From Campylobacterota bacterium (lineage in GTDB: Bacteria; Campylobacterota; Campylobacteria; Campylobacterales; Sulfurovaceae): a stretch of DNA of 57,735 nt. The first letter of the stretch is position 1. Each line of letters starts with the position of its first letter. Of the stretch, positions 2,048 through 7,409 are shown in pieces. Location of the stretch: NCBI GenBank assembly GCA_003252535.1, contig QKDN01000057.1:1-57735 (forward strand), given 5' to 3'. The translations under genes and the position numbers were made by a program. Below the pieces are notes generated by a model, which searched no databases, was not told where the DNA came from, and saw only the letters and a program-made list of their open reading frames with translations.

Positions 2048-5000
2048 TTACTGTTCTTTTTTTGCAATGTAGAACTCAAAAAGCCGTCTGTCGACGATGT
2101 TCGGCAGGAAGCCGTGGACATTCTCTTTTGTCAGCCTGAACTCACTGTCCAGTGGCCCGTCAATGAAAATGATGTTTTTGATATGTTTTCTTTCCAGTAT
2201 CGATGGGAGCTTGTCGTCATCTCTGAACAGTGATGCGTCCGCGAGGGAATATGAATATATTGTACTATTGATCGCTTTGAGATAGGCATCCTTGGTCGGT
2301 GCCATATCCACCTTGTATCCCTCATCGCCCAGTACAGCTCTAAAGAGTTTACCGCTGATGATATCCTCTTTATAGAGTATGATATCCATGCTTTCGTGTT
2401 CACTGCTGACCTTCTCGGGGAAATACTCTTTGATCATATCGAACAGCAGAGGCAGTTCGAGCGGTTTGGCGAGGAAGTTGTCCATACCTTCAGAAAGCAT
2501 CCGTTCCCTGTCCCCTTTGAGGTTGTTGGCTGTCAGTGCGATGATAGGTATATGGGGTAGATTGTTCTCCTCTTCGTATGCGAGTATCGCATGGGTCGAT
2601 TCAATACCGCTCATGACCGGCATCTGGACGTCCATCAGGATCATATCGTAGCGGTTCTTCTGACGCAGTTCGAAGGCCTCCTGACCGTTGTTTGCCAGGT
2701 CGATATCGACACCCTTGCTGCTGAGGGAGTGTTCGATAAGCCGTTGGTTGATGCGGTTGTCCTCGGCGACGAGGATATGGAGGTCTTTGAAAGCGATGAA
2801 CTCTTTTGCAGGTGAGGCTTTCGGGCTGCTCTCAGCCTCTGTCTGCATAGCATATTTGAGCGCCTTTTGGAGCTTTGTGAAATTAAATGGCTTGAGGATG
2901 ACCGAGTCGCTTCCTTCGATATTGTATCTGTTGGTATAGTGTCGGGATATATGGATCACTTTCATATTCGGCAACACGGGATAGTTATCGATCTCCTGGT
3001 CGGAGATATCCTCGAGGATAATGATATCAGGTCTCTTTGCGTCTTCCTGGGCATGGAGAGCGTCTAGGCTCTCATACTCCTGGTAGCTTGCCCCGGTAGC
3101 CAGTACATAGCGCCCCATATAGTTCTGCATTTTCTCATATTTGGCATCAGGTGCTGCTATGTAGCCGACCTTTGCATTGATCTGTTCGAATTGCAGCGGC
3201 GTACCGTTTCTGAGTGAGATAGTGAAGAAGAAAGTAGAACCCTGGCCTTTTTCGCTCTCGATATCGAGGTTGCCGCCCATCGCCTGGATGAAACGCTTGG
3301 AGATGGTGAGACCCAGACCAGTACCGCCGAACTTTCGGCTGGTGGAGATATCTTCCTGTGCAAATGCTGTAAAGATATTCTTTTTCTTCTCTTTGTCTAC
3401 CCCGATACCGGTGTCTTTGACATAGAAATAGAGGGTCGATATCTCGTCATCGATATGGACAGCTTCGATACCCATATCGATCGAGCCCTGCGGCGGTGTG
3501 AACTTGATAGCATTGCTGACAAGGTTGGTGAGGACCTGGTTGATCTTGGTCGGATCGCCGTACAGCTTGGTCCTGATGGCCGGATCGATGAAGAGCCTGA
3601 GGCTGATATTCTTCTCTCCGGCTTTCGCCCCGTAGGTCTCGACGGAGGTCTCAAAGGTCTTGAACGGATCGAAGAGTATCTCTTCGAGCTCGACGTTCTT
3701 TTCCTGTATCTTGGCCAGGTCGAGGATGTCGTTGACGATCACCAGAAGGTTTTCCGAGCTGGTATTGATGATCTGTACGAACTGCTCCTGCTCGCTGTCG
3801 AGCTTTGTCTTTTTCAACAGCTGGGCAAACCCAAGAATACCGTTCAGCGGTGTCCGTATCTCGTGTGACATATTCGCAAGGAAGAGGTCCTTGGTACGGT
3901 TGGCACTGGCGATGGTATCTGCCATGAACTGATAGATTTTCAGCTTGTCCTTTCGCTTGATGATCTCGTTGAGCTCATCCCTCTGTGCTTCGTCCAGGTT
4001 GAGACTGATGTTGTTCAGTGCGGTGATGAACCCCAGGGCATCTTCCCTGACAGCGCTGAAGATCATATGGAGGATGTAGATCGAGAGGATCAGCAGAAAG
4101 AGTATCCCAAGCTGGATATAGAAACGTTTGTCGAGAAGATTGATGTTGTCTGCGATGATCGCTTCAGCCTGTCCGCTCAGGGCCGCCTGTATCAGCTTCA
4201 GCTCTCCGATACGTTTGTCTTTGACCTTGCTCCAGTTCTCTGTCTCTGCCTTGTCGTCCAAACCCTGCATAGAATTGAAGATGATCTTGCTTCGGTTGTT
4301 TTCGAGGTCTGCACTTTGCTGGTACTTCGATACATAGCCGCCAAGCTTTTTGGCGAGCCTTTCATCGTCGATATTGACCATGGCCGGGATATACTGCTTG
4401 CTTATGAGCGTGTCCCAGTACTGGTAGTCTTTTGCGATGAGAGGCTCCGCTGCGATGATCTTGGAGGCGATGAATCCCTTCTCGATCGTCTCGACATGGT
4501 TGAGTCGGAGAATATCTACATAGAGCCTGAGGATATCCTTGTTTGATCTCGGATCATTCAGGTTGAGGATATTGTCCAGACCGATCGAACGGAGAAAAAC
4601 GAAAAGGGTACTGCTCTCTTTTTCCACGCTCAGTTTTTCCTGGAGCTTCACGATCTCACCGATAAGGGTCTTTGTGTAGGTGTTGACATATTTGTTGAAG
4701 AAGAACTGGTCGAATTCGATGGTATTGAGCTTGATCCTTGCCCTCACGAGCTTGAGGTCGTCATAGAGCTGGGAGAGGGCTTCCTGGTCTTCGGAGACTG
4801 CGATGAGCCCGCCCAGGAGCTGGTCGACCTTCTTTTGCTGCGCTTCAAGCTGTCTGAACCAGGATACTCCGTCACTGTCGAGGGTATAGCGTGTTGCCAG
4901 ATAGAACTCATCGTCAAGATTGCCGATGAGTGCTTCGAGTTCCTTCATCTGTTCAAGGTTGGTGCGCATATCGGTCGCTTTGTTTATCTCGCCATACCCC

Positions 5001-5080
5001 ATATAGGTGTAGTACGAGAGTATAAGGACCATCAGTGCGATAGGTATCTGCAACGCAGCTTCAAAGATTTTATTCTTCAT
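2048..5080 (-). CDS. hybrid sensor histidine kinase with several receiver domains
   Basis: 1010 aa. A transmembrane helix (about 8-28) and a second (about 322-342) enclose a large helical periplasmic domain of about 290 residues, distantly like NIT/four-helix sensors. Then come HisKA ([12 protein letters not shown], His406), HATPase (Asn523 in the N box, DTGIGV, GGTGLGL), a degenerate receiver (about 635-745, no acidic pair but ILKPF kept), and a canonical receiver (E773/D774, phospho-acceptor D817 in [11 protein letters not shown]872). The C-terminal 110 residues look like a third, badly eroded receiver. It follows three exported PilJ-type genes in one operon, which suggests those proteins feed its periplasmic domain. 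No DNA-binding output is present, so the partner regulator is elsewhere. Confidence 0.9.
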
Positions 5081-5092
5081 ACCGACTCCGGA

Positions 5093-5854
5093 CTATTGGT
5101 TTTTACTGTGGAATGTCTCGAGGACATGGACGCTTTTTTTGACCTCGCTGGAGACGAGCAAAATGATATTGGGCATATTGTTCCCCATTTTGTTCTCCAG
5201 GAAGCTCTTGAGCACGAGCCAGTTGGCCTTGAGCATTTCAAGATCTTTGAGCCTGTCGCCACTGTATTGGTATTCCTCACCGGCACTGTCGATATCGCTC
5301 TCCATCTGTGTCATCGCCTCGCTGAGCATCTCGTTGTAGACACTGTTGTCAGGTTCGATCATCATCGCCATATAGTATTTGGTCATCCGTTCTATCAGGT
5401 ACGCCATATCTTTCATCTTGATGAGCATTGCCTCTTCTTTGGAAGGGGTGTACTTGAGGTTCTGGCTGATCGTCTCGGCACCTTCGAGGAGCACCTCGCT
5501 GTAGTCGAGCATCAAAGCTGGGTTCTCTTTTTCGAACGGGTCTTTGAGTACTTCGAGCATCTTCCCTTTGCTGTAGTCGAGGAAGGTAAGGATATCTTTG
5601 GAATCTTCGTCTTTTGTCGATCGGGCTATGAGGCGGAACTGGGCATCGAGGTCGTCGAGCCCCTGCTTGACAAGCTCCCTGACATAGGTTTTGCCGGGGT
5701 TGTGATAGAGGAAGAGATAGTTCTTGACCACCTCCTGGCTCCCCAGCCTGATGTTTTCCGAAGCCTCAAGGAGCGATACCTGGCTACGGATGGAAGCAGC
5801 CTGGAGGAGTGAACCCGCGACGATCAAAAGCGAAAGATATCCGGAGAGCCTCAT
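5093..5854 (-). CDS. exported PilJ-like helical protein, degenerate copy
   Basis: 253 aa with an N-terminal signal peptide (MRLSGYLSLLIVAGSLLQAA). The rest is helical and about the same length as the two upstream PilJ-type proteins. Its segments NIRLGSQEVVKNYLF and MKDMAYLIERMTKYYMA align by position with their QRMLSQR boxes, but the hallmark Gly-Arg-Gln-Arg-Met residues are gone. I read it as a diverged third member of a tandem duplication that has lost the ligand-box consensus. It lies 3 bases after the previous gene and 12 before the hybrid kinase. It probably acts in the periplasm with them; the ligand is unknown. Confidence 0.65.
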   Translation of the reverse strand: MRLSGYLSLLIVAGSLLQAASIRSQVSLLEASENIRLGSQEVVKNYLFLYHNPGKTYVRELVKQGLDDLDAQFRLIARSTKDEDSKDILTFLDYSKGKMLEVLKDPFEKENPALMLDYSEVLLEGAETISQNLKYTPSKEEAMLIKMKDMAYLIERMTKYYMAMMIEPDNSVYNEMLSEAMTQMESDIDSAGEEYQYSGDRLKDLEMLKANWLVLKSFLENKMGNNMPNIILLVSSEVKKSVHVLETFHSKNQ

Positions 5855-5857
5855 GAT

Positions 5858-6631
5858 CTATTTCCCCTGGAGCGTAGCGGCATACATCCCCACTATCTCA
5901 TTCATTTTTGCAGTGATGTTGTCCGTAGTGGAGTAGACGATCTTGGGGAGACCGCCTTTTTCGATATTGAGATAGAACTTGTAGACGATCTTCCACATCT
6001 TCTCTACCTCTTTGAGCTCTGCGGTGATCTCCGGGGTGTTCTTCTCATAGCTCAGAAGCTGTTTGAGTATATCGTCGAACTCCTTGACCGTCTCTTTCAT
6101 CTGGATGATCGTGTTGTCATCTTTGACCCCAGCCTGGTAGGCGATATAGTACTTTGCGATCCTTTGTGAAAGCATCCTTGTCTTGCCTGAGATATCGAGG
6201 ATCACATTCGCCTGCTGGGACTCGGTCAGTGCTTTGACGACATAGTCGCTCCCTTCGAGCATCGATTCGCTGAGGTCGAGCATGATCGTACCGTTCTCCA
6301 CGCTGTAGGCTTCATTGGAGAGGGCTTCGAACTCCTGCAAGCTCATATCGACGAAGGCTATGAGGTTGTGTATCTCATCATCCTTGATCTCCGAGTTGAG
6401 CGTCTGTTGTGCCGTTTTGAACTCTATAAGGCTCTCTTTGAGCTGTTTGAGGGCATTCGATTTGTTGATACCCCTCCCGGCGTAGAAGTAATCCTTTGCC
6501 ATTCTCTGTGTGAGCATCCTTTGCTTGCCGGCAACATCGACGATGTGTTTGGCAGGTGCCGCATCGGCGAAGAGCATACTTGAGACCAGGAGCGTCCCGA
6601 TCGTGGCTGTTTTGATAATGGTTTGAAACAT
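5858..6631 (-). CDS. exported protein with two PilJ-type domains
   Basis: 257 aa from ATG 6631, chosen because AAGGAG lies 6 bases upstream and the signal peptide (MFQTIIKTATIGTLLVSSML, cut near AFADAA-A) then starts correctly. The longer reading from 6658 would overlap the previous gene. Two repeats each begin with a PilJ box: GKQRMLTQRMAKDY at 35-48 and GKTRMLSQRIAKYY at 149-162. Each is followed by about 80 helical residues. PilJ domains (type IV pili methyl-accepting chemotaxis transducer N-terminal) normally sit inside membrane sensors such as NarX or PilJ. Here they form a free exported protein with no membrane anchor or output. Middle gene of the sensor operon. Confidence 0.75.
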   Translation of the reverse strand: MFQTIIKTATIGTLLVSSMLFADAAPAKHIVDVAGKQRMLTQRMAKDYFYAGRGINKSNALKQLKESLIEFKTAQQTLNSEIKDDEIHNLIAFVDMSLQEFEALSNEAYSVENGTIMLDLSESMLEGSDYVVKALTESQQANVILDISGKTRMLSQRIAKYYIAYQAGVKDDNTIIQMKETVKEFDDILKQLLSYEKNTPEITAELKEVEKMWKIVYKFYLNIEKGGLPKIVYSTTDNITAKMNEIVGMYAATLQGK

Positions 6632-6641
6632 AACTCTCTCC

Positions 6642-7409
6642 TTATTTGACATCTTCATAGAGTGCGGTGATTTCGTTCATCTTCCCGGTGATCTTGTCGG
6701 AAGACTTTGCTATGAGACTGGGGATAAATTTTTTGGATTGCGAGGCACCGAGCATTTCGAAGAACATGAAATCTTTTTTGACCTGCTCAAGTCCCTGTTT
6801 GATCAGGTCTGTGTTCTTGTCGTAAGCTGCAAGCTTCTTCTGGGCGTCCTGGAACTGGGTGAGAGCGTCGATGAGCTTCTGGTCGTCTTTGGCTACTCCC
6901 CATACCTTGAGCATATAGAGGCTTCCGAGTCGCTGCGAGAGCATTCTCTGACGTCCCGAGATATTGATGATCTCACCTACGCTGTGGGTCGAGGTGGCGG
7001 TGATGGCGAGCGTCGCTTTGTGTGCGGCCGCGAGGAGCTTTTCGACCTCATCAAAGAGAGCGCTTGCCTCCTCTTTGGTCGGTGCTGCGAGGAGTTTCGC
7101 TTTGGTCGGGTCCCAGAGGGCTTTGACCTCTGCAAGGGCATCGGATGAGGCTTTGTCCTTGCCATCTGAGAATTTGATCAGGTCGTTCAGAGTCTCTTCA
7201 AAGAGCTGTGAGGACTCATCGAGTACTTTTTTGGGATCGCCGTAGAGCATATTCATCCCGACCATCGAATAGCTTTTCATCATTCTTTGCGACAGCATTC
7301 TTTGTCTACCCGCTTTGTTGATCGCTTCGTTGAGCGTGGCGATCTCGGCTTCGGCAAACGTGAGCAGTGAAAGCAATATGAGCAGTATGCCCAGAAGTCT
7401 TTTGTGCAT
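6642..7409 (-). CDS. exported protein with two PilJ-type domains
   Basis: 255 aa, first gene of the operon. The signal peptide is about 1-21 (LLGILLILLSLLTFAEA). Two PilJ boxes, GRQRMLSQRMMKSY (35-48) and GRQRMLSQRLGSLY (152-165), start two similar helical halves, so the gene is itself an internal duplication. It has the same plan as the next gene. The box is identical to the one in nitrate/nitrite-type sensors, so a small anion is a reasonable but unproven ligand. The start has GGATGGGAA upstream. The 112 bases before it hold an imperfect palindrome (about 7470-7485, TCACTGATATTCGTGA) that could be an operator. Confidence 0.75.
   Translation of the reverse strand: MHKRLLGILLILLSLLTFAEAEIATLNEAINKAGRQRMLSQRMMKSYSMVGMNMLYGDPKKVLDESSQLFEETLNDLIKFSDGKDKASSDALAEVKALWDPTKAKLLAAPTKEEASALFDEVEKLLAAAHKATLAITATSTHSVGEIINISGRQRMLSQRLGSLYMLKVWGVAKDDQKLIDALTQFQDAQKKLAAYDKNTDLIKQGLEQVKKDFMFFEMLGASQSKKFIPSLIAKSSDKITGKMNEITALYEDVK

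Follow-up and report, generated by a model that had tools for sequence, protein, structure and literature searches.

Lying on the minus strand of a 57,735-nucleotide stretch of DNA from a Campylobacterota bacterium (Sulfurovaceae; assembly GCA_003252535.1, contig QKDN01000057.1, positions 1 to 57,735; the whole stretch is referred to here as the window) are four head-to-tail genes, A, B, C and K, that run from position 7409 to position 2048. A and B encode exported proteins with two PilJ domains each, C encodes a paralogue of B, and K encodes a hybrid histidine kinase with a nitrate- and nitrite-sensing (NIT) type of periplasmic domain. The genes are closely packed in the window, with an overlap of 17 bp between A and B and gaps of 3 bp between B and C and 12 bp between C and K.

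6642..7409, minus strand: A, exported tandem-PilJ protein of 255 residues with two boxes (two PilJ matches, E 3e-23; halves homologous; eight-helix AlphaFold2 model)
5858..6658, minus strand: B, exported tandem-PilJ protein of 266 residues with two boxes (two PilJ matches, E 2e-19; halves homologous)
5093..5854, minus strand: C, exported box-less paralogue of B, 253 residues (hhalign to B 99.9 over 220 columns; N-box in 0 of 65 members)
2048..5080, minus strand: K, NIT-domain hybrid histidine kinase of 1010 residues (Pfam; 34% identity over 952 residues to a solo NIT kinase of the same genome)

At the start of A, B and C is a signal-like hydrophobic segment, and neither a lipobox nor a later membrane segment was seen in any of the three, as judged by eye and with a crude hydropathy scan. 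The original prediction for this locus had placed A, B and C head to tail before a 1010-residue kinase, had given A and B two boxes each and a signal segment without an anchor, and had assigned one good and two eroded receivers to K. Its coordinates agree with those found here; A and B each have two PilJ matches and no later membrane segment, and one receiver of K is matched in Pfam, with the other two recovered by hhalign (87 and 89).

A scan of 84,980 species genomes with B as the query led to 79 fetched loci, which were considered together with the window. Counting the window, 59 gene strings show the order A-B-C-K: 45 A-B-C-K strings, 11 A-A-B-C-K strings and three longer repeats of the same order; the median intergenic gaps are 9–12 bp. 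As the loci were picked by their match to B, these figures show how B is linked to the other genes and not how common the system is, and many loci outside the 59 strings are truncated contigs. Owing to this recurrence the arrangement is not due to chance, and A-B-C-K is a real, conserved module; conservation of the gene order, on which the original prediction had staked itself, is thus what was found. The hosts of the 79 loci are nearly all vent- or seep-type Campylobacterota known as metagenome-assembled genomes (Sulfurovum, Nitratifractor and relatives); a few loci are gammaproteobacterial (Sedimenticola, Thiolapillus), and spread beyond Campylobacterota is known solely from these B-matched loci. 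Among 299 genomes drawn from the order, only two families (f1 and f6) have strong matches to B (E below 1e-45), and a scan of a viral collection with B returned no relatives.

The soluble proteins A, B and C

A and B carry two boxes each, and the corresponding first position of C is altered:

7287..7322, minus strand: A box 1, INKAGRQRMLSQ, residues 30–41 (exact fit to the published N-box; G34, R37, M38 and Q41 invariant in 64 sequences)
6933..6968, minus strand: A box 2, INISGRQRMLSQ, residues 148–159 (R155, M156 and Q159 invariant in 64 sequences)
6506..6541, minus strand: B box 1, VDVAGKQRMLTQ, residues 40–51 (exact fit to the published N-box; conserved)
6164..6199, minus strand: B box 2, LDISGKTRMLSQ, residues 154–165 (GxxRM kept; R in 93% of the B family)
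5735..5770, minus strand: C altered box 1, LEASENIRLGSQ, residues 29–40 (the anion-site Gly replaced by Glu; Arg retained)

The N-box of nitrate-binding PilJ domains reads [IVL]-[ND]-x-A-G-x-Q-R-M-L-[ST]-Q (PMC6381276). It is present exactly in box 1 of both A and B; box 2 deviates by a change of A to S and, in B, additionally of Q to T, with GxxRM intact in both proteins. Exactly two GxxR[ML] boxes are found in 85 of 93 A proteins and 70 of 86 B proteins, and in the deduplicated sets of A and B the box arginine is kept in 93–97% and the box glycine in 86–97%. Homology links the two halves within A and within B, and it extends between A and B along their full length. When the A profile is compared with solved structures, the nitrate domain of McpN ranks first (E 8e-6). 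By their sequences, A and B qualify as N-box PilJ domain proteins with a putative nitrate site.

The AlphaFold2 model of A is confident (predicted local distance difference test 93.5, predicted template-modelling score 0.87) and comprises eight helices after the signal segment. It superposes better on NasR (template-modelling (TM) score 0.42–0.49), one chain of which forms two adjacent bundles, than on the tandem PilJ protein of Pseudomonas aeruginosa (0.26–0.27; Foldseek, all E-values above 0.01). The McpN dimer holds one nitrate on its axis, in contact with G58, A59, R61 and M62 from both subunits. Because the eight-helix model fits NasR better than PilJ, we infer that one A chain may be the equivalent of a McpN or NarX dimer, that is, a single-chain pseudo-dimer.

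C is a full-length paralogue of B with no match in Pfam and, among its 65 members, no strict N-box. The original prediction described it as having lost the box; a box is indeed missing, but this is not a simple loss, as another conserved motif sits there. Within the C family, the glycine of the box 1 position is replaced by Glu in 95% and the arginine retained in 85%, and at the box 2 position the glycine is replaced by Lys in 91% and the arginine by Glu in 52%. From these conserved charge replacements we infer a site that is probably closed by the protein's own charges, and hence ligand-independent.

The sensor domain of K and the loss of its ligand motif

K comprises a periplasmic sensor, a kinase core and three receivers, one of them intact:

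4121..4996, minus strand: NIT-like periplasmic domain, about residues 29–320 (NIT match in 35 of 47 relatives; NasR fold match, probability 1.00)
4904..4915, minus strand: first eroded NIT ligand motif, DDEF, residues 56–59 (G/Q-x-x-R in most NIT proteins without PilJ genes)
4478..4489, minus strand: second eroded NIT ligand motif, TIEK, residues 198–201 (G/Q-x-x-R in most NIT proteins without PilJ genes)
3701..3892, minus strand: HisKA, residues 397–460 (PF00512, E 1e-22)
3209..3559, minus strand: HATPase, residues 508–624 (PF02518, E 1e-27)
2852..3121, minus strand: eroded receiver 1, about residues 654–743 (hhalign 86.8 to the good receiver)
2432..2776, minus strand: intact receiver, residues 769–883 (PF00072, E 6e-27)
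2060..2386, minus strand: eroded receiver 3, about residues 899–1007 (hhalign 88.6 to the good receiver)

The sensor of the window K itself falls below the Pfam threshold. The NIT family (PF08376) is matched by 35 of 47 K relatives, with a best E-value of 1e-15, and the nearest relatives, L012 and L014, match it at 3e-15 and 4e-15. The top fold match of the AlphaFold2 model of the K sensor is NasR (PDB code 4akk; probability 1.00, TM score 0.47–0.54, E 0.01). The large helical periplasmic domain of the original prediction is thus helical as described, but it is not anonymous: judged from its relatives and its predicted fold, the periplasmic region of K is a NIT domain minus the ligand motif. 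A relationship of the K sensor to A, B or C was considered and rejected (hhalign under 4%).

Contig C31 of the same genome (locus L168) encodes a solo NIT hybrid kinase that shares 34% identity with K across 952 residues. Beside it, at L168:3938–7160 (genome G000), an E-rich low-complexity open reading frame of 945 residues overlaps a 227-residue frame ending in an HPt domain, an overlap that is a frameshift or assembly artefact in a repeat.

NasR keeps both arginines of its ligand motifs and has one glycine replaced by Gln (PMC8199190); the NasR chain as aligned here reads QCER and GQER, consistent with that description. The assignment of the G/Q-x-x-R sites of both bundles as the probable NIT ligand residues is made in the present analysis from the sequences. 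If G, Q, S or A is accepted as the first residue and R required as the last, the full motif pair is present in 31 of 37 NIT proteins without PilJ genes versus 0 of 54 kinases beside PilJ genes, and both arginines are present in 32 of the 37 versus 13 of the 54 operon kinases (Fisher p = 1e-18 and 3e-9, respectively, with kinship ignored). At these sites the window K has DDEF and TIEK, and the C31 kinase GKER and GLER. Because distant NIT proteins that lie outside the kinase-core tree mostly retain the pair, it is simpler to assume that the operon kinases lost it.

The distances of A, B and C were compared with those of the K sensor over 48 loci. C follows the sensor closely (r = 0.92; partial correlation, given the kinase core, 0.76), B and A less so (0.49 and 0.32); the sensor correlates with its own kinase core at r = 0.80, below its correlation with C. 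Contributing to the C–K correlation are adjacency and occasional exchange of A and B, and the co-divergence supports, but does not prove, a contact between C and the K sensor. The original prediction had read the locus as a periplasmic sensor whose ligand-binding parts are soluble and separate from the kinase. By comparison of loci, that reading is well supported by the gene order, the boxes of A and B and the erosion of the K pocket, but it has to be amended in that the box-less C, not A or B, tracks the K sensor.

Proposed mechanism, ligand and alternatives

Built on the gene order, the conserved boxes of A and B, the replaced boxes of C, and the NIT identity and eroded motif of K, all apparent at the sequence level, is the following proposal. 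Exported and free of an anchor, A and B, each with two PilJ four-helix bundles per chain, would bind nitrate or a similar anion. Both GxxR-M boxes of one chain would meet and form one binding site, as in the subunit pair of McpN or NarX and the two halves of the NasR chain. Docked on the periplasmic NIT domain of K would be C, placed there owing to its co-divergence and adjacency, and ligand-loaded A or B would alter the state of C and K, with the change either relayed by C or read jointly with it. As its own NIT domain has lost the ligand motif, K would respond to ligand-loaded A or B, autophosphorylate and then pass the phosphate to its one intact receiver. K has no HPt domain of its own, so that the onward signal would need a separate HPt protein, followed by a response regulator. 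Four HPt-containing proteins were found in the genome. At another locus (L139:4753–9404), the gene for an A-type protein immediately precedes those for a hybrid kinase, an HPt protein and a REC-EAL protein, which make up a complete phosphorelay leading to cyclic-di-GMP.

On this evidence, it is somewhat probable that the four proteins make up a periplasmic sensor of nitrate, or of a small anion much like it, in which A and B bind and C relays to K. The narrower version, in which a pocket-decayed NIT kinase has had its nitrate sensing moved to diffusible single-chain tandem-PilJ receptors that report via a permanently ligand-free C, filled by its own Glu/Arg and Lys, is plausible and is put forward tentatively.

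Pointing to nitrate are the N-box of A and B and the sharing of one operon by two nitrate-associated domain families, NIT and PilJ. A membrane-bound tandem-PilJ relative of about 456 residues, with no recognised output domain, has its gene immediately before napA in five genomes, which belong to two families (G090, G149, G232, G250 and G265). At L155:10053–12088, one such napA locus, a Crp-type regulator is found just upstream of the tandem-PilJ protein, and L160 is a similar locus.

Several observations weigh against the proposed sensor. The operon label needs three changes on the kinase-core tree, so that the motif contrast is at clade level, between few deep lineages; for this reason the Fisher tests were rejected as independent evidence. 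Both NIT arginines, without the glycines, are kept by 13 of the 54 operon kinases, some of which may still bind ligand. The Foldseek E-values, at 0.01 or higher, are weak, a common outcome with helical bundles. Nearly all of the order has NapA, which makes its co-occurrence uninformative as a test of the ligand, and a NapA match of full strength is missing in three near-complete genomes that bear the system (G026, G056 and G206). Moreover, the tandem PilJ protein of P. aeruginosa, which is without an N-box, does not bind nitrate, and neither does the NIT domain of PA4520.

The same architecture could serve another ligand, with A and B binding other small anions or two different ones (for example, nitrite, sulfite or thiosulfate) and the two proteins reading several ligands or a ratio. 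A and B form two different families, each conserved in its own right, the A gene is often duplicated, NarX and NarQ bind nitrite and sulfite too (PMC6381276), and the three genomes without NapA above the cut-off fit this alternative as well; however, box 1 of both A and B is the exact nitrate N-box, and those domain relatives whose ligand is known bind nitrate, so this reading is unlikely.

Alternatively, A and B would bind nitrate in order to take it up, buffer it or hand it to the periplasmic nitrate reductase, and would share no more than their regulation with a kinase that detects something else via C. This would suit the A-B strings without a kinase (13, some of them on truncated contigs, and the pair at L009 described below), the C-K pairs without A-B (L133 and L137) and the looser tracking of K by A and B than by C. 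It is improbable given a fixed gene order with gaps near zero, a NIT kinase that lacks its own ligand motif exactly where A and B are present, and the full phosphorelay that A precedes at L139. More improbable still is a role of the soluble proteins as envelope-stress or structural accessories of the kinase, with boxes that are inherited and unimportant for ligand binding. Periplasmic accessory proteins that modulate kinases are known, as in QseG-QseE, and the box-less C is nonetheless tightly tied to K; yet few residues of A and B are as strongly conserved as the G and R of the boxes, and C belongs to the same family without boxes, which indicates that the boxes are not needed for the fold.

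Similar to the proposed nitrate sensor in design is TorT-TorS (and also LuxP-LuxQ and ChvE-VirA), in which a soluble periplasmic protein thought to bind the ligand is read by a hybrid kinase with a helical domain. TorT, LuxP and ChvE are periplasmic proteins of the sugar-binding type. At the present locus, unlike in TorT-TorS, there are three soluble proteins, they are of the tandem PilJ four-helix type, and the kinase domain is NIT; a soluble exported partner is encoded with the kinase in all 59 strings (export judged by eye). McpN shares its domain family and N-box with A and B and is the best solved-structure match of A, but it sits in the membrane as a chemoreceptor and has a single PilJ domain, with nitrate held between two subunits, whereas A and B are soluble, have two domains per chain and lack a signalling domain.

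NarX and NarQ resemble the system in their GxxR boxes for nitrate and their kinase output, but their box is part of the kinase, whereas at this locus separate proteins carry it; K also differs in having HisKA, hybrid receivers and a NIT domain. Membership of K in the NarX/NarQ group was rejected, as K has no P-box or PilJ match (Pfam) and its dimerization and histidine phosphotransfer domain is HisKA (PF00512), not HisKA_3 as in the NarX type (PMC8199190). Among NIT proteins, K is homologous end to end to the solo kinase at L168, and in fold to NasR; its relatives match PF08376 and its model has the NasR-like two-bundle fold, but, unlike both proteins, K no longer has the paired G/Q-x-x-R, and its gene stands with those of A, B and C. 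Staphylococcal NreA-NreB-NreC likewise has a kinase under the control of a separate, soluble receptor for nitrate (PMC8199190), although NreA has a GAF fold, controls an oxygen-sensing system and is not a PilJ protein as A and B are. The open-access literature searched yielded no account of soluble PilJ proteins together with a kinase, which is not proof of absence. A-B-C-K is apparently a so far undescribed variant of the binding-protein-dependent sensor kinases that works most like TorT-TorS.

If correct, the proposal would make this the first nitrate kinase that depends on binding proteins, and A and B the first PilJ receptors that are both soluble and single-chain, in a system widespread among vent Campylobacterota. 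Extracellular nitrate sensing is not settled for these bacteria, which are major nitrate-reducing sulfur oxidisers (for Wolinella, a review names Crp/Fnr-type Nss regulators; PMC6682613), and the module provides a concrete candidate with residue-level predictions. A domain that is normally part of membrane receptors is used here as free periplasmic proteins, beside a receptor minus its own pocket. Owing to the decay of the K pocket and the complete nitrate-type pockets predicted for A and B, the task of detecting nitrate seems to have passed from the receptor to proteins that can diffuse.

Related sets and neighbouring genes

Two further sets are found in the genome of the window (G000). On contig C33 (L009:9349–10894) is a second A-B pair with no adjoining kinase, 73% and 83% identical to A and B, which could serve K in trans. 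On contig C21 (L010:3401–8623) is a third, diverged set composed of a B-like protein, a box-less protein and a 1150-residue hybrid kinase, the sensor of which matched no Pfam family; the set adjoins a porin-like gene and a MobA-like gene.

The original prediction had also noted that a DsrE-like gene follows K. Such a gene is present locally, at 1688–2029 (its Pfam match to PF02635 has an E-value of just 0.11), but no counterpart was found at the other fetched loci; the gene was therefore rejected as a member of the module and is a local neighbour. With the link unsupported, the hint at a sulfur ligand loses its basis.

In the gammaproteobacteria Sedimenticola and Thiolapillus (L084–L090), A-B pairs lie near phosphonate-binding-type domains, and an Lcl_C protein follows B in place of C; at L089 the phosphonate-binding-type domain is inside a hybrid kinase that is followed by a LuxR-type regulator. 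Proteins of about 555 residues with four PilJ domains, a signal peptide and no output domain are encoded at L125:7641–12142 and similar loci (L126–L129 and L134), followed at L125 by rhodanese, LysM and M23 peptidase genes. A short variant (L066:4072–5700, L055:2256–4010 and, similarly, L049, L059, L065 and L072) combines a C of 217–226 residues with a NIT protein of 514–584 residues that has no receiver and a kinase core little or not recognisable in Pfam.

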